Positions 14,852 through 44,967 of a DNA stretch of 64,000 nt are shown in pieces. A program made the translations under genes and the position numbers. The DNA lies in contig WHVD01000087.1 in the NCBI GenBank assembly GCA_015178975.1, positions 294,655-358,654 of the forward strand, in the 5' to 3' direction. The notes beneath the pieces are model-generated. The model worked only from the letters and a program-made list of their open reading frames with translations. It was not told where the DNA came from and did no database searches. This stretch comes from Hysterangium stoloniferum (lineage: Eukaryota > Basidiomycota > Agaricomycetes > Hysterangiales > Hysterangiaceae). The number at the start of each line of letters is the position of its first letter. Position 1 is the first letter of the stretch.

Positions 14852-15172
14852 TCAGTCTACATTTATGGGGCTATCTTTTTTCCCCACCTTGGTTTTCCCC
14901 ACCTCAGCCATCTCCTCGGGTAGCTCCGCTATCTCCACGGGCACCCCTTCCTCATCTGACCCAGCATCCTCAGAACTCCCAGCCTCCGCCTCCTCATATA
15001 CAAAACTGGCATATTCCACTAGGAATTTGTAATGTTCCAAGTGGAGTGCATGGAGATCAATGGCCATCACCACATGCACCTTGTTGCTCTTCTTAAGCAA
15101 CTCGTTCTGGGCTTCTATGCCATCAGCGATCCATCCCAAAACCTCCTCCAGGCCGGAATACCCATCCGACCC
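14852..15172 (-). pseudogene. 3' fragment of the chromovirus antisense gene, copy 1
   Basis: A minus-strand frame encodes GLEEVLGWIADGIEAQNEL, a helical segment, an acidic stretch (EEAEAGSSEDAGSDEEG) and the C-terminus SPINVD. It aligns throughout with the C-terminal exon of the antisense gene at 17227-21884, and the frame is intact. Upstream of about 15172 it is fused to integrase sequence of the next chromovirus copy, so the zinc-cluster exons are missing. It lies convergent to, and about 195 bp beyond, the Pol stop. Confidence 0.75.
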
Positions 15173-17027
15173 ACCTGTGGAATTCTATCTTTATGGATTT
15201 CATTGAACACCTACCAGATTCTGAAGGCTTTTCTGCCATTCTAGTCGTTGTTGACAGATTCTCAAAACAAGGTATATTCATCCCTAATTATGATACAATT
15301 ACATCCATGCAGTTAGCGGAACTTTTCATTATCCACGTATTTTCCAAGCACGGAGTTCCATCCCATGTGACTTCCGATCGAGGATCAGAGTTTGTATCTC
15401 ACTTCTTTAGATCCCTTGGGAAATCCTTGGACATGACATTACATTTCACATCCGGACATCACCTGGAAGGCGACGGACAAAGCGAACGCATCAATCAGAC
15501 ATTGGAACAATTATTGATCTCTGCATATATTGCAATTACCAACATGACAATTGGAAATTCTTGTTACCACTTGCAGAGTTTGCTTATGTTAAGAACTGAA
15601 ACCTGACTAAAGTTGGTTGGCTGACAGGGACCGATCGGAAGGACTTGGCTTCAGCTTATGTGCTGCACCCTCGCAGTTATCCATCGGGTGTCCTTAAATT
15701 TCGGGCGGGCGAAGACTAGTCCCAATGAACACCTCTTGGTGAAAACTACCAATTGGAATCTAGGGATAAGTCGAGTGTCGGGCCAAGGGGTCGGGGACCA
15801 AAAGGGGGCGAGCGCACGTGAAGGTGGATAGTGGAATTCTTAGTATGAGATTACTCTAGACGTAAGAGGGTGTTCTGAGTCAATATTCTGATTGCCTAGT
15901 AACTACAACTACAGCGGGTTCATATACAAGTATCAGATGTCTAGAAAATACTAACTAGGAGAAGGGCGGAAAACGGTATTAACAATAAGCTTGACTAGGA
16001 ACGGGAAGTTTATGATTAGTTCGGAGGCCGTGAGATAACCGAGAGCAGAATTATGGTAAAAGGAAATAGTTCGAGGGTTACAAGTATATATAGACATATG
16101 TGAAACATAGGATAAAATGGATCATCATAATAAAAAGGGATGTATCAAAGTTTAACCAGATAGTACAAGTATATTTTGACATGGGTGTAAACGGAGTTTG
16201 ATCACCACGAAAGCATACATCAGCTTCGGGAGGCCAATGGTTTCTGATGTGGTGACTTGAACAGTAACTTGAATCGTCGATAGGTGGCAATAACCTCGGG
16301 GACCAATAGGGTTGCGACATGGTCGTAACAGCTTACAACAATGCACCTTCAGCCACTACTGGTGTTTCCCCATTCTTTGCAAATAAACGATATAATCCAA
16401 ATATTACAGTACATCCAGAATGAAATCTCACCTCTGCTCACACTCAAGAGTTCACTGCAGACCTCCACGAGCTCCACGAAGAACTCCAGACTGCAATAAT
16501 GTCCGCCCAAGAGCAATATCAACATTCAGCAGACAAACACTGGATCCCACCACCAAACTTCAAGATTGGCGATCGTGTTTTTGTCAAAGCTCAATTCTTC
16601 CGGACTACTCATCCATCAAAAAAGCTTGCTGAAAAATATTTAGGTCCTTTTGAAATTATTGCACAAGTAGGTTCAGTCTCTTGGACTCTATGGCTTCTGG
16701 ATAGCATGTGCACGGTACACCCAGTATTTCATGTTTCTATGTTAGAACCTTGTACTGCTAACACTATCCCAGATCGCGTGCAATCTCCGCCTCCTCCGGT
16801 CATTATTGACAGAGAACCCAAGTTTGAAATCTCGCAAATTTTAGATTCGAAAATTGACAAGCGTCGACACACTTGTAAACTGCTTTACTTGGTCAAGTGG
16901 GCGGGTTACGAGGGCACCAATGAAGAAACCTCATGGATTTTGGCCACAGAACTCGGTAATGCCATGGAAATCGTTACTGACTTTCATATAGCTTACCCAC
17001 TCAAACCTGGACCACTATCGTCTCTCT
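15173..17027 (+). pseudogene. Ty3/gypsy chromovirus Pol 3' end, copy 2 (integrase core, chromodomain)
   Basis: Opens inside the integrase with MDFIEHLPDSEGF (15193). It keeps the second catalytic Asp in TSDRGSEFVSHF (about 15370) and the Glu-region HFTSGHHLEGDGQSERI (about 15445). It is then interrupted by a solo LTR (15587-16330, target duplication GCTTA) and resumes as YNNAPSATTGVSPFFANK. The C-terminal part from 16499 is open to the stop after PGPLSSL at 17027, including the chromodomain (KLLYLVKWAGYEGTNEETSW, about 16875-16935). It belongs to the element that ends in the 3' LTR at 22097. Confidence 0.9.
15587..16330 (-). repeat. Solo LTR, family 1, reverse orientation
   Basis: Plus strand reads TGTTAAGAACTG ... 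GGTCGTAACA, flanked by a perfect GCTTA duplication (15582-15586, 16331-16335). Copy 1 of the chromovirus shows the empty site (GAATTTGCTTACAACAATGC near 13960). Confidence 0.95.
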
Positions 17028-17583
17028 GACCGCACTCCACAGACCCCGTGTTACATTTGGACTCATTTACATTATTCCCTGTCGCCCTATGTCTCTCTTT
17101 GCTTTTACAGGTTCTGACATGTTTTCAAGTCCTTAAGTGGAATTTCCGCGGACTTTGATTTTTATGTTTTTCACACCTTACTTTCATTTTCAAAAAAAAT
17201 TATTATCAAGTTTTATATTACTTTTCTCAGTCTACATTTATGGGACTGTGTTTTTTCCCTGCCTCCTCAGCCACCTCCTCAGGGAGCTCCACTACCTCCG
17301 TGGGCACCTCATCCTCATCTGACCCAGCGTCCTTGGAACTCTTGGCTTGTGGCTCCTCATAGATATAGCCGCCAAACTCCACTAGGAACTTCCAAAATTC
17401 CAAGCGGAGCCCACAGAGCTCATTTGCCACTACAATTTGGACCTTGTTGCTTTTTCTGAGCAACTCGTTTTGGGCCTCTATGCCCTCAGCGATCTGTCCC
17501 AAAACCTTGTCCAACCCAGAAAACCCATCCGACCCGCTAATGTCTCATGCCCTGGACCCTGCGGCCTGCTTGTGAACAAGTGA

Positions 17584-17676
17584 GCACCTCACCTTGAGGT
17601 GTGTGCATTGGTAGCAGCCTGGACCCTGGCCGGACTTTCGATTGCATTCAGTGTTCCGGTCATTACAACTGGAACA
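17584..17676 (-). other. Zn(II)2Cys6-type binuclear cluster motif
   Basis: Minus-strand reading CSSCNDRNTEC, then nine residues, then CYQCTHLKVRC: spacing 2-6-9-2-6 between six cysteines. This fits fungal Zn2Cys6 DNA-binding domains, although the usual basic residues between the second and third Cys are few. Confidence 0.75.
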
Positions 17677-18795
17677 CCGCGGGTCATTCCATGTGGGTAG
17701 GCGGACTGGTGCCACCTTCTTTGCCTTCTGTTGATATGGTTAGTTCTACAGTTATCCCACAGACCCGATGCTTACCTTTTGGGGGCTCTCCAGCTCCCCC
17801 TCGGACTCCAACTCAACTTCTGTCACCTTGCGCTGAAAATGCCAAGTCAAAAAAAATGACAAGTTGAAACATTGGGACTTACCTTGCCCACGACAATCGC
17901 GGCTCTGTCCGCAGCCACCCACGCTTTCTCTGTGGCTGTGATGTATTCAGGGGTTTCTCTTAGATAGCTCAATATATGCTATAGTGTCATAGAGCTTCAA
18001 CAATAAAACAAGCAAATGTCCAGTAATTTAAATACTGATAGATTAATGAGCTGTGATATTAAGCTTAAACAACTCAAATTAATGCTTATTTTGATTATTG
18101 AAAGGTTCAATAGAACAATATATGACTCTTTTAGCAAACAAAAGAACTATTCCTTGAGAATAGGGGCTAGAAGCTGAGTATATGCACAGTAACTTAGTGG
18201 AGACTTGATATAAAGCTTCGGATTCTTGTATGCTTATTTATAACTATTAATAGTTATTTAACAAGGTGTTAAATAATTTATTAATAGAGAAAATAATTTG
18301 TGTTGGATTATTTAAGTGCTTGTACTTGATTAATTCAATAAACTTAGGGCTGGGCCTTGAATGATCTAGTATTGGCAGGGAATTTCAGTAAGGATACTTA
18401 GATACTTATTAGGTTTATTATGTAATTAATAAGCCTAAAGGGTAGCTGTGAGGCTGGGGGAACTTAGATGATTAGCTAAGTCCAAGAGTTGCTGACAAAG
18501 ATTCAAGATTCTGCAAGTGTAGGTGCTTGCAGTTAGTGTATCAGACTAAGACTATTATTGTCCTTAGGATGATTAGATAAGCTTCTGAGCTGTGCAGTAA
18601 AATGTGAGAGATAAGATTGATTTTATTGGAAACTTGGCCCTCCTTATATACATTTTGATAACTAAATGATTAGCTGATTATTTAGTTTATGAGGTCACTA
18701 GTTAGATCATAATGACCTCATATTCTACTTATTATTTACCCTTTATTTATCACATGATTCCCCTCTCTGAGACAAGGGTTCTAACCTCTTGCTTG

Positions 18796-18947
18796 TGTTG
18801 GAATACGAAGTGAGTCTCGTTACAAACGGATAAGGACTACAATACATGTATCGTCCTTATATGTATACGTCTAGTAACTGCTTACTAATATAGGCGTATG
18901 GTCTGTGCTTCTTGCTGCTCGCATATCAGATTCCCCAAAATCCAACA
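18796..18947 (-). repeat. 3' LTR (152 bp) of the copia-type element
   Basis: Differs from 21084-21235 at only about two positions. It is adjacent to the purine tract GAGGGAGTG (minus strand, 18956-18948), a plausible polypurine tract. Confidence 0.9.
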
Positions 18948-21067
18948 CACTCCCTCGAGCACAAGGAGATCACACTAAATCAGAGCACTCCCTTAAACAT
19001 ATCCTTGAGTTCATTTGCCTGAACTCCATGAGATAACCGCAACATCCTCCAAATCTCTCAAGTGCACTCCTTGAACCTCACGTACTCCCATACAGTTGTC
19101 CATCGTTTCGACTCCCAATCTATCCTGGATATTACAGGCGATAATGGCAAGTGGCGATGTTCGACAGCGATCCAGGACAAACTTGTTAAATAGTAAAGTG
19201 GTGATTCAGCCCTTTTCACGGGTGCACAATGATAAACGCGGATTATAAGAGTTGTCGGTGTGCGAATGTATGTAGGCGTGAATGAGTGTTGTAGTATCGA
19301 TGTGATGTGTGATAAATAATAAACAATGTGCAATGTTCAAAGGGGGACAGTCGGTTTCTTGATATGTGGTGGTTCAATTGGACATTTGACACTGGTATGC
19401 TCAGCAGGTTTGACGTTAATGTACTTGGTGGCATTGACATGGTGTTGCACCATCTTCTCGTTGGCCAGTCCTGACATTGTTTCGCCTCTGTAACGTCCAC
19501 AGTGGATCATTGAGATCCTATATGGCCATTGCCATTGCGTTTTTGAACGACGTTGAGATTTCAGGTAAGTTCTTGTCCATTTTGTCCTGGGGCTGATTAT
19601 CTACGTGTAGCAAGGCTGCGACGGCAGCAACATCTCATGGCAAGTTCTTCTGGGCAGTGCTAGGACACTGGTGTCCCTTTTAGCCATGCCTTCATTGCTG
19701 CTGATTGAATACGCAGGTATACGCTAACGGTTTGCGTGCATGATAGCCTCGACCTGATGGTTCCGATTCCAGCGTGTGTGGACTTTCCGAAATCTTTGAG
19801 CAGGTCCATGCAGGTGCATCGACCATCGTGGATGTGGACAGTCGTCCCTGACCATCACGACTCGAGCCCTAGTGCTCGTAATACTCCAACACACCCCCTC
19901 GAGCGTAGAAACTCGAAAATATACGATGCACCCCCTCAAAACTAGCTTGCCATGAATCCCTGAGTTCCGTCTGGATCTCCATTCCATGCAGTGTTGAGGT
20001 GCAAACGATCCCAAATGTGTGTGAGTTTGTGCACTGGTGAAAAAATCGGTCGCCAGTTGTCGTCGTCCTGTGTGGTGTGCCTCAAAGTAAGATTCTTGAT
20101 TTTCTTCTTCCAATTCGTCACCCCATCATCAACATTCCCTTGCCCATCCAACCCAGGTCAGCATTCCCTCCAGTAGGGCTCTTCCATCCCTCTGGCTCAC
20201 GATGAGACTGCAATCGGCCGCTACCTCAGTCATCCACTGGGTGTTCCTATGTGCCATACTTTTGCATCCATCTCTATCGCAGCTGTCGTTGATTATGATA
20301 TTGGCGGTAATTGTGATTGGTGGTGCCTCGAAAAGGTGAGGACTTTCATTGATGCCCGGAACTGCCTGCAGGTCTTTGTACATCGAGTCGTCTCGATTCG
20401 AGGTCTCGTATGTTTGCAGTTCAGCTGTGGTTAACAGGAGCCACCCGTGATGCGTGTGACGTAGACAGCAGTTCCTGGCTGTTGCATATGTGGCAGTCCC
20501 TGCATGTTGTGACGCGAGTCCTAATGCTCGCTATCCCTTGCTATCCCAAATCTAACGCACTCCCTCGAGCATGAGGGACTCGCAGTGACCATTCCCACTC
20601 CCTCAAATGATAAATCCATACCGTCCAATTTTCCCAGTCCAAGTTTTCCTCACTGCAACTTCATCCTGATGCACCGTATCTCTCCAAGACATGATAGTCA
20701 TAGCATTCCCTCTGGTGAAGACAGCTTGTCTTTCCAGCTCACAATCGACCTGTCGGGTTGGCCATCCTCAGGCTCAATGGCTCTGGGATTTTCGGCACCT
20801 CAGTCAGCCAGATCGTCGCAGCGTTATTGGGAGCATGTGCAGGATATTACAGTTTTGAGTGTAAATTCTTGTTATGGTAATGACTGTAGAATTAGTGGTA
20901 GTATGTGAAGAGTGAAGTTCGCACAGTTAATGACAATGCGTGGAATGGCGGTTTGTGCAATGGGATTAAAGGTGGTCTACAACAGCACCTAGCTTTGGTG
21001 AACCGTAGCTAACCGTGATCCGTTTGTGTTTTGTGAAGTTGACATTTCGAATGTGCAGGAGTACGCT

Positions 21068-21083
21068 CCCGGGGCCCATAACC
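21068..21083 (-). other. Primer-binding-site-like sequence for initiator tRNA-Met half
   Basis: Minus strand GGTTATGGGCCCCGGG directly abuts the LTR end CCAACA. GGTTATGGGCCC is complementary to the anticodon stem-loop of initiator tRNA-Met (GGGCCCATAACC), the half-tRNA priming known for Drosophila copia-type elements. Confidence 0.7.
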
Positions 21084-21235
21084 TGTTGGAATACGAAGTG
21101 AGTCTCGTTACACACGGATAAGGACTACAATACATGTATCGTCCTTATATGTATACGTCTAGTAACTGCTTACTAATATAGGCGTATGGTCTGTGCTTCT
21201 TGCTGCTCACATATCAGATTCCCCAAAATCCAACA
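21084..21235 (-). repeat. 5' LTR (152 bp) of the copia-type element
   Basis: Pair of 18796-18947; followed by the primer-binding-like site and flanked by GCTTG. Confidence 0.9.
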
Positions 21236-21884
21236 GCTTGAACATGAAGGTTCAAGGCCGCAGTCCTGGGACGGAAGCAAACGATGAGTCGGCGGAATCA
21301 ATTAATGACTCGGGTAGTCACATCCGTGACTTGTGTGACATCCCGACACCAGAGGCTTATCTAATAAGTCACATGACTTGAAAAATGCGCAAACAAGGCT
21401 GCAGCAAGGTGCCAAAAAGCAATAACTAAGTAAATAAAATATAAATAATTAGTTAAAAATTATAATAAAATAAATAAGATATAATAGCATTATATGAGCT
21501 CATATATGCTATTATTATGCAAAGTTAAAAGGAATGAGGCCTTATATTTCACAATGAAAATATAATAAAAATACAATAAATTCAAGAAAATATTAAATAA
21601 TTCACAGAAAATTAAGAGAATATTATGAGATGATGCTGATACCTCACAGTGGCCACCCGCACAGCCTCCTCCTCTTCTCATTTCTTCTGCCTTGCGGCCT
21701 CTTCCTCCATGGCCAATGCTGCCTGGTACTCCCTGTCCAAATCCTCCTCGGCCTCCCTGGCCTCCTTCTCTGCCTCTTCATGAAGTCGGCACTGCTCTTC
21801 TCACCACGCCAAAAGTTGGGCAGCACTCCAAGGTCCCCGATTTGGAGTGCCCATGGAGGGCCCGGTGGTTGGCATAGGTCCCAT

Positions 21885-22083
21885 TATGTCGAAGATGGGG
21901 GTAATAAAGAAGAAGAATTTCTATTTTTTAAATTTATATATAGGCTCGTTGCATTTGAACCTTACCTTTCAGATCACATGACTCCTTGACACATATGTAT
22001 GTGTAACTGACATGACTTTTGACACATGTGCATAGCCAACAAGAACCTTATCGAGGTCTAGAGCCTCTTTGGGACTTCGGCAT
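21885..22083 (+). other. Chromovirus 3' non-coding region, possible promoter of the antisense gene
   Basis: About 200 bp between the antisense start codon and the polypurine tract, with no plus-strand coding. By position it would hold the promoter of the minus-strand gene; no motif is certain. Confidence 0.35.
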
Positions 22084-22093
22084 AAAGGGAGGG
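22084..22093 (+). other. Polypurine tract of the chromovirus
   Basis: AAAGGGAGGG lies 3 bp before the LTR start at 22097, where plus-strand priming of Ty3/gypsy elements occurs. It establishes that 22097 is the 3' LTR of the element containing Pol and the antisense gene. Confidence 0.75.
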
Positions 22094-22096
22094 TAC

Positions 22097-29385: not shown

Positions 29386-30216
29386 CCGCTGAACTCCGAC
29401 CCCAAGTAGAGCAGTAATGTCTGCCGTGAGATCTGGTCATTTGCCGGCATGTGAAGGTGTTGTAGCCGCGTTCCTACATCAAAGCTGGACAAAGCCCCCA
29501 GACTCGACATATTGTCACGTTCCGACATATTTGTCACTCTTCGTCACATGTAAAAGTTCCCATAGCTCCACTAAGGTATGACTTGCCTTTGTAGTCGACA
29601 CTGACAAATAAAATATCACGTGTTTCAACTTTTTCTTTCTTTTTAATACATTTATATACCGCGTCGCATAACTAAGATACATAGCGGTTCCGTAGAGCAT
29701 AGCTACTATAGTATCTACGGGAGAATGAAGAGGAAGCAGGCCGATGCGTCGGAGCGAGTGGCGGTTGGCAGGATGGTCGAATATGAGCATGGTGAGGTGA
29801 TTTAATGCTCAAAAAATAATTCTACGTGTACAACACAACATGGAAGAATGTGCTACAAAAATATGCACGAAGCCTTGTAACTCTGCCTCTCACAGCTATA
29901 TTCAATCTCTGCAATTCATGCCGCAAACGAGACCGGATGAACAAACAAAAAGGGCGGGTCGAAGCAAAAAAAAAGCCATTGTCGTCAAGCCAAGAGCGTC
30001 GTCGTGAAGGGGAAGCAGGAGAGCGTCGAAAGTAGATCCTGCTGATGGTGGCACAGAAAAACAAGCTGGCAGGAAGCGTGGGCTTGACAGTGGAGCGGAG
30101 GACCCAGGAAGGCCCACACGATGTCAGAAAACACATCATGAAGGCTCGAGAGCATCAAGCCTTCCCAGAACAATGACGAGGAGAACGGGTTTTTTGATGA
30201 TGAGCCTGATGAATCA
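29386..30216. other. Intergenic sequence with short dispersed repeat
   Basis: Contains a roughly 160-bp repeat at about 29643-29795 and otherwise no supported gene. A minus-strand open frame at 29822-30139 has no recognisable domain. Confidence 0.45.
29643..29795 (+). repeat. Dispersed repeat (partner 31748-31915)
   Basis: Shares TTTATATACCG, CATAACTAAGATACATAGCG, GTATCTACGGGAGAATGAAG and GGTTGGCAGGATGGTCGAAT with 31748-31915; the partner has a 12-bp insertion. Confidence 0.85.
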
Positions 30217-30256
30217 GTGAGCTCTAACCATGGATTTATTGCTTATATTCCATATC

Positions 30257-31030
30257 AGTACTACCTATACCTCAGTCGCGCACACGTACCCACACAGGCC
30301 GCCGCAGCCACCCGTGTGCACCCGCCCTGCACACCCCGCGAACCCACGGCCCCCGTACGCACCCCCCCTCATGCCCCCTGCACCCCCTGTGCGTACCCGC
30401 GCCTGCACCCCACACCCACGCACTGCGCCCACACCCCCCATGCATTCCCGACCTGCCACCCGCACCCCTTGCCTGCACGCGGACGCACCTCACCCCGCAC
30501 AATCACACCCCCGCACGCCTGCTCACCCAACCGCAGCACCCCGCATCCCGCGTACCTCGACCCGTCAAGCCTGCTCCCAGTGTCCACACCCACGCCCCCG
30601 CACAACCGCGACGCGTACCCCTCGCACGGGCAACCCACCGCCACTCGCCTGCACCTGCATGCGGGCGCACCCCACCCCGCGCAATCACAGCATTCGCACT
30701 CCGCGCCCCCCACACGCCTACACTCCACGCGCAGTTCACCGCCACTATGCGTACCCCCCGCATGTGCACTTACGCGCACCCGCCCACGGCCCCACATGAA
30801 CCCCGCACCACCCTACATCCTGTCACGCACCCGCCACCCCCTGCTCCCTGAGCCCACTCCCTGCCTCACGCTCCCTGTCCCACATCCCGTATCCCCCGTA
30901 CCACCCCAGGTGCTGACTCGCCCCGTGCACTCGCCACTCACACCCTGCGCCCCGACCCGCCTCGCACCCGCTCCCGCCCCCTGCACCCGCCCCACATACC
31001 CTGTGCCCCCTTACCGCACCCTGCCGCACT
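30257..31030 (+). other. Strand-asymmetric C-rich low-complexity island
   Basis: About 770 bp made largely of CACCC, CCGCAC and CCCTGC words, with G scarce on the plus strand. Long open frames arise on both strands (for example a His/Pro/Thr-rich plus frame 30217-31083). This is expected when stop codons are improbable, so I do not call them genes. It lies between segments A and B. Confidence 0.75.
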
Positions 31031-43792: not shown

Positions 43793-44967
43793 TGTAAAGA
43801 TCCGTTCCTGGAAACTCTTTGGAGTATTTCCTGGATATTATCTCTTGGTCCGAACCATCTTCTGGACCAGTATCAAGATCCGGAATCCACTGGAACCTGA
43901 TCCTCATCCCTTCAAGGTGACTTCCAGTCAGACTCCTGGTCAGACTCCCAGTCAGACTCCCAGTCAGACTTCCGGTCAGACTCCCAGTCAGACTTCCGGT
44001 CAGACTCCCAGTCAGACTTCCGGTCAGACTCCCAGTCAGACTTCCGGTCAGACTCCCAGTCAGACTTCCGGTCAGACTCCCAGTCAGACTTCCGGTCAGA
44101 CTCCCAGTCAGACTCCCAGTCAGACTCCCAGTCAGACTCCCGGTCAGACTCCCAGTCTGACTCCCAGTCTGACCCCCGGTCAGACTCCCGGTCAGACTCC
44201 CAGTCAGACTCCCAGTCAGACTCCTGGTCAGACTCCCAGTCAGACTCCCAGTCAGACTCCCAGTCAGACACCCAGTCAGACACCCAGTCAGACACCCAGT
44301 CAGACATCCAGTCAGACACCCGGTCAGACACCCGGTCAGACACCCATCTCTGATCCAACTTTCCACCCCAAGTCTCTGATCCAACTTTCTGACATCCACC
44401 TCAAAATCCGACCCGACTTCCAACTATGGAACATTTGTAGTTTCCATATTTCTGAACCTCATCCTTGTTCTGTATTTAGTAACTGACAGGTTAACAGTTA
44501 TTCATTCACTTGTTTATTGTTCTTGTTGTATTCCCGTTTCGGAATCTTCATCCTAATCTGTCTTATTATACTTCTAGATTTGTAGTACAATTACTGGAAC
44601 ATCTATATAGTCTTCCATAGTCATGTACTTACTCTTTAGTTTTAATCTCAAATTAGTTTGTATCTCTTCTGTCTTTCTGTATGCTCAATCTTCGGAACTC
44701 TCTGGACTCCGGATATCTGGAACTTCCGAGTATCCGTAAACATTCCGACATATATTCATCCTCTGAAATATGGACACCTGAGTGAGTGCACGAGGGCACA
44801 GCACATAAGCTGAAGCCAAGTCCATCTGTACTCTGGTAATATTCCGATACTCCCGTTACTAATCCCCGGAAACTCCCAGACTAATTCTCCGAAACTCCGA
44901 GGACATATTTCTGGGAAGTATCCAGAATATCCATTGGAAATTCTGCCCCAAGATCCAGAACTTGACA
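43793..44967 (+). repeat. Solo LTR, family 4, with minisatellite expansion
   Basis: TGTAAAGATCCG ... GAACTTGACA with a perfect target duplication GGTGC (43788-43792, 44968-44972). The 3' part matches the shorter solo LTR 56908-57466, which lacks the minisatellite. The conserved LTR core is at 44804-44823. Confidence 0.9.
43924..44346 (+). repeat. 12-bp minisatellite, about 35 units
   Basis: The unit CCAGTCAGACTC alternates with CCGGTCAGACTC or CAGACTTCCGGT variants. A 24-bp higher-order pattern covers about 43965-44100. Because 12 is a multiple of 3, long open frames appear on both strands (for example Pro-Ser-Gln-Thr repeats); these are by-products, not genes. Confidence 0.95.

Follow-up and report, generated by a model that had tools for sequence, protein, structure and literature searches.

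The 64,000-nucleotide stretch of contig WHVD01000087.1 analysed here (the window) belongs to Hysterangium stoloniferum, a truffle-like basidiomycete of the order Hysterangiales with a genome of 111 Mb, which a passage of PMC7550596 groups with the ectomycorrhizal Phallomycetidae. It contains the end of a chromovirus pol reading frame, the polypurine tract and 3' long terminal repeat (LTR) of the element and, between them on the strand opposite to pol, a gene of three exons (Table 1). The window gene at 17227-21884 is a pseudogene with insertions, dead because two stops and an insertion of about 3.7 kb lie in its first exon and its third holds one further stop, a TGA that follows the cysteine cluster and precedes the acidic tail; the working structure is visible in sister copies only. 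A first-pass annotation, made from the window alone, had described a minus-strand gene opposite to pol with GT-AG introns of 50 and 54 nt. The exons, the GT-AG introns and the 50 nt of intron 1 were found as described, whereas intron 2 measures 48 nt and the gene is not intact in this copy. The additional 3' exon copy that it had reported is present with an open frame, and is 77% identical to the window exon 3 over 274 nt in ungapped alignment.

The gene belongs to a large and young family of elements. With the window exon 3 and the second copy as queries, exon 3 was found at no fewer than 286 distinct places of the genome: all 150 places scored among 831 candidates matched the window exon 3, and the second copy gave another 150 places, 136 of them new and 14 common to both lists. 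From sister loci, twenty stretches, none longer than 10 kb, were taken, and the best copies display a chromovirus of about 8.1 kb that encodes a gag of about 437 aa and, in a frame overlapping with it, a pol of 1304 aa. The pol of copy L035 contains RVP_2, RVT_1, RT_RNaseH, Integrase_H2C2, rve and Chromo in this order, each above its Pfam cut-off. The LTRs of intact copies are 821 bp long. Since the LTR pair is 100% identical within L032 and within L033, and target duplications of 5 bp flank six of the seven copies inspected (none at L038), the family has moved very recently. Many near-identical copies lie at most a few kb from the end of a contig, e.g., those of C103, C16, C33 and C165; these ends are likely assembly breaks at repeats, because TTAGGG is absent and CCCTAA occurs at most once in the three stretches that reach contig ends (L031, L034 and L036).

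The antisense gene is borne by the chromovirus. The C-terminus of pol was found on the opposite strand 198-232 nt past the gene end in all 40 distinct copies with sufficient flank, that of the window included, and an LTR in the expected orientation lies 350-839 nt upstream of the exon 3 match in 36 of them; this count started from 42 distinct loci, with 10 duplicates omitted, and L051 and L052 were set aside for their short flanks. The first-pass proposal of a retrotransposon-encoded gene is borne out by these distances, and homologues occurring only as free host genes, which it had named as evidence to the contrary, did not appear among the 40 copies checked. The association was also clear from the pol side, where an exon 3 match is listed 195-241 nt away for 117 of the best 150 pol ends; among the other 33, ten show a gene exon in the junction searches, one carries a deletion (L053) and 22 are without a listed gene. 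When only pol ends at 100% identity are considered, exon 3 is listed for 23 of 24, and the remaining one is 613 nt from a contig end. Thus, as in the class of additional genes called aORF-3R, the gene lies between pol and the 3' LTR in the orientation opposite to gag-pol, and most members of the family carry it. At L053 (contig C2:325560-326160) exon 1 reads in frame directly into the final 13 residues, and the joint shows microhomology. We considered this form as a possible short but functional version and rejected it, as the junction was found at one place only (40 scored of 400 candidates).

A host gene captured recently and riding as a passenger would explain the gene-like anatomy with introns, and the host does possess Zn2Cys6 genes, with 42 matches to the Zn_clus profile in its genome. 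None of these 42 places coincides with the listed exon 3 places when compared by eye, all 40 examined copies lie inside the element, and selection persists between subfamilies at a synonymous divergence (dS) of about 1, so we hold such a passenger to be highly improbable. Several of the Zn_clus matches are clustered on single contigs (C56, C115, C209 and C113).

The working form comprises three exons and two phase-0 introns between pol and the 3' LTR and encodes about 294 aa. Exons of 327, 57 and 501 nt were found in all 17 stop-free, splice-intact copies, while intron 1 varies from 48 to 58 nt, with every remainder modulo 3 represented, and intron 2 has 49 or 50 nt. Exon 1 is shorter by 21 nt, i.e., one heptad, in four other copies (L016, L017, L042 and L047). 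Splice sites and cysteines were aligned for the 33 loci with one BLAST stretch longer than 950 nt, a set that leaves out fragmented copies such as that of the window. The first donor is GTAAGT in 33 of 33, the second begins with GT in 31 (L023 and L024 being changed), and both acceptors are AG throughout. Intron 2 of every copy has a CTRAY branch motif that begins 16 nt ahead of its 3' end; in intron 1 this distance is 17-19 nt, and the motif is present in 27 of 33. The splice signals are therefore under purifying selection, and the first exon junction is identical in the publicly annotated protein P0002. A 138-nt exon-exon junction query, for which 40 of 455 candidate places were scored, retrieved no intron-less (processed) copy, all matches being to a single exon, which fits copying through sense RNA, where the introns exist only as their complement. 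Open frames of 339-341 aa at L040 and L041 were examined as possible spliced copies; L041 retains both introns and was rejected.

Our results also showed that selection acts on the protein. The ratio of nonsynonymous to synonymous differences per site (pN/pS) was 0.246 over 16 distinct copies, the pairs of which are not independent, with 0.26, 0.12 and 0.25 for exons 1, 2 and 3, respectively; the 16 are the distinct ones of the 17 stop-free, splice-intact copies, and L023, stop-free with a changed intron 2 donor, is not among them. In the four copies of L031-L050 (n = 20) whose pol frame exceeds 1250 residues, pN/pS was 0.198 for the antisense gene, 0.175 for pol and 0.345 for gag, so that its conservation is similar to that of the gag-pol proteins, again as in aORF-3R genes. 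For three subfamily members compared with one another, the ratio of nonsynonymous to synonymous divergence (omega) was 0.17-0.21 at dS of 0.29-0.98. Purifying selection constrains this protein roughly as strictly as it does pol, and the ratio near 1 that the first-pass annotation had listed as an argument against its gene was not observed. A chance reading frame in repeated DNA, to which the broken state of the window copy might point, is practically negligible in view of the frame-specific selection and the conserved splice and branch signals.

The same data bear on whether the antisense RNA, rather than a protein, is what matters, by pairing with sense RNA and limiting the element through double-stranded RNA or interference. 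The antisense gene and pol are convergent, and their transcripts could therefore overlap, and double-stranded RNA has been raised for such genes in an excerpt of PMC7264820. Selection follows the amino-acid frame, however: the other five frames of exon 3 gave pN/pS of 0.34-1.59 against 0.246 in the true frame, and the lowest of these is explained by third positions that coincide with those of the true frame. The introns, moreover, drift like synonymous sites (divergence of 0.101 and 0.112, respectively, in the 16 copies). We therefore consider it very unlikely that the RNA acts in place of the protein, although it may have a role in addition.

The predicted protein begins with charged, alanine-rich heptads, followed by a basic stretch, KRK...KKARK, which spans exon ends and by resemblance is a putative nuclear signal. 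Six cysteines spaced 2-6-9-2-6 come next, and the protein of L035 has no others. This spacing and the acidic C-terminus had been read correctly from the window exon 3. All 17 working copies retain the six cysteines, whose conservation across all 33 aligned copies is 97-100%, and the acidic tail is followed by a terminal SPINVD that is invariant in the ten aligned sequences. The spacing is within the range of Zn2Cys6 domains (PF00172). A structure model predicts two helices with weak confidence. Protein searches returned Hysterangium proteins only, which is weak evidence of absence elsewhere, for they need shared five-residue words and scored about 8000 candidates in two runs. No relative was present among 19 pattern matches in viral contigs, the best match among solved structures was a talin-1 helix (E 0.038), and the one NCBIfam match (E 0.15) fell far under its cut-off.

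Upstream of the gene lies a block that is more conserved than the coding sequence. About 60 nt before the ATG, GAGCCTATATA is common to the 20 aligned copies, and a duplicated box of 18-19 bp, ATGTGTCAAA(A/G)AGTCATGT-like, is nearly invariant in the same copies, its two copies being 29-30 bp apart in L035. In 17 copies picked from the 33 for diversity, decayed ones included, the pairwise difference was 0.029 for the distal box, 0.033 for the proximal block and 0.046 for the TATA region, as compared to 0.11-0.12 for first and second codon positions, 0.265 for third positions and 0.193 for introns, the last of which may be raised by alignment gaps. This block is apparently the antisense gene's own promoter. 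With up to three mismatches, the full box occurs once in the L035 element, at the distal copy; the proximal copy has one extra base. When one mismatch is allowed, the short parts of the box are found within the element as well, though not in the LTR.

Taken together, we propose, at a probability of roughly 0.5, that the chromovirus carries an antisense accessory gene for a nuclear, dimeric, DNA-binding regulator of transcription. In the mechanism we have in mind, RNA polymerase II would transcribe the gene from the internal promoter, and the introns would survive each round of copying because sense RNA holds them only as complement. The product of about 294 aa would enter the nucleus by means of the KRK...KKARK stretch, dimerise through its coiled-coil and helical segments and bind DNA with the Zn2Cys6-like cluster, and its acidic tail may help to regulate its own promoter and perhaps the LTR too, much as HBZ does in human T-cell leukemia virus (HTLV). 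A further step would be a self-contained antisense circuit, the fungal equivalent of HBZ, in which the two boxes, three helical turns apart, are bound by the encoded dimer and determine how active the element is; this we find possible and somewhat doubtful.

Several observations weigh against a DNA-binding regulator. The Pfam Zn_clus profile gave 8-11 bits for the L035 protein and did not reach its cut-off of 21, and seven of ten exon 3 members matched it weakly at best (best E 0.12); because of this score we speak of a cluster that is Zn2Cys6-like by its spacing. It resembles Zn2Cys6 proteins (PF00172) in the spacing and in the nearby coiled coil and acidic region, and differs from them in the score under the cut-off and in that no link to the Zn_clus matches of the host was seen. 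Both structure models have a mean predicted local distance difference test (pLDDT) below 60, with 55 for the cluster model. At L053 an intact 1304-aa pol frame stands beside a gene without the zinc exon. The LTR of L035 contained no match to the duplicated box or, with one mismatch, to its two short parts, and direct control of the LTR is therefore without sequence support. Finally, the upstream block may instead have its role on the sense strand.

The protein could also be a factor of the particle or the pre-integration complex, acting in nuclear import, chaperoning of the cDNA or steering of integration. Linkage to the element and selection fit this equally well, the basic stretch and coiled coil would also suit import or tethering, and import or accessory roles are suggested for such genes in an excerpt of PMC7264820. 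We regard it as a serious, tentative alternative, and favour regulation because the separate antisense promoter (a candidate) and the transcription-factor-like order of parts suit a regulator better, with neither of them decisive.

Botrytis is an ascomycete, in contrast to the basidiomycete Hysterangium, and its elements offer the closest precedent. Zhao et al. (2011), as cited in passages of PMC8365987 and PMC4227169 (see also an excerpt of PMC5987419), described the antisense additional gene brtn in Boty-like gypsy elements of Botrytis cinerea. According to PMC7264820, brtn is located between pol and the 3' LTR, and according to PMC4227169 the gag-pol of Boty-like elements carries a CHROMO domain. 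The Hysterangium gene is thus likened, by description only, to an antisense additional gene at the same place in a fungal gypsy element with a CHROMO domain. Because Boty has both brtn and this domain, the kind of gene is already known, also in a fungal chromovirus. The antisense reading frames of gene23, RIRE2, Retand and PvRetro13 agree with it in place, orientation and presence in most copies, as told in passages of PMC7264820; they differ in their plant hosts, and the same text reports no clear protein similarities and names no zinc cluster. It does mention an SMC domain in the PvRetro13 frame and a transposase-28 domain in that of Retand, and describes gene23 of maize Grande as transcribed from a promoter upstream of the gene and its protein as nuclear.

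The comparison with HTLV-1 concerns only the way in which the product would work. HBZ, a spliced antisense product of the bZIP class, is expressed from the 3' LTR and acts in the nucleus as a coiled-coil regulator that possesses an activation region. In Hysterangium, on the other hand, the candidate promoter is internal, between the gene and the polypurine tract, and the cluster is based on cysteines. An antisense promoter in the 3' LTR of HTLV is also noted in the excerpt of PMC7264820, which further states that the roles of the antisense additional genes of LTR elements have not yet been determined. The combination of two introns, a zinc cluster with coiled coil, a promoter block and measured selection was not met in the literature and proteins searched, which is weak evidence given that few subscription papers were covered.

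Additional antisense genes in LTR elements are a long-standing observation. The Hysterangium family makes their function directly testable in one element, as it combines hundreds of copies, some of them young, with clear exons, quantified selection and candidates for both the DNA-binding domain and the promoter. It also illustrates how introns may stay spliceable in a retroelement that is copied through RNA, namely when the gene is coded on the opposite strand.

Table 1. Features of the window copy and its surroundings (window positions)
Feature	Position	Strand	Remarks
Exon 3	17227..17727	minus	six-cysteine cluster, helical stretch, acidic tail, C-terminal SPINVD; one in-frame TGA
Intron 2	17728..17775	minus	48 nt, GTAAGC...CAG; placed by homology with sister copies
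Exon 2	17776..17832	minus	57 nt
Intron 1	17833..17882	minus	50 nt, GTAAGT...CAG; donor GTAAGT at 17882
Exon 1, 3' part	17883..17930	minus	
Insertion splitting the coding part of exon 1	17931..21643, borders approximate		~3.7 kb
Exon 1, 5' part	21644..21884	minus	ATG at 21884; charged heptad region; two in-frame stops
TATA box region	21931..21947	minus	GAGCCTATATATAAA; conserved in 20/20 aligned copies
Duplicated promoter box (candidate), proximal copy	21976..21994	minus	
Duplicated promoter box (candidate), distal copy	22010..22027	minus	
End of pol	16424..17029	plus	SH3_Tf2-1 + chromodomain
Polypurine tract	22084..22096	plus	3' LTR start ~22097, TGTTATGACC; assigned by likeness to sister copies
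Second exon 3 copy	14852..15172	minus	truncated, open frame

The insertion within exon 1 contains direct repeats of 152 bp at 18796-18947 and 21084-21235, which are 98.7% identical and about 2.1 kb apart and may mark a small, non-coding LTR element. Elsewhere in the window, a tandem array of about 36 copies of a 12-bp unit (GACTCCCAGTCA) occupies 43919-44346 with open frames on both strands, and an island of 66% G+C, as compared to about 45% around it, lies at 30001-31000 with several overlapping open frames.

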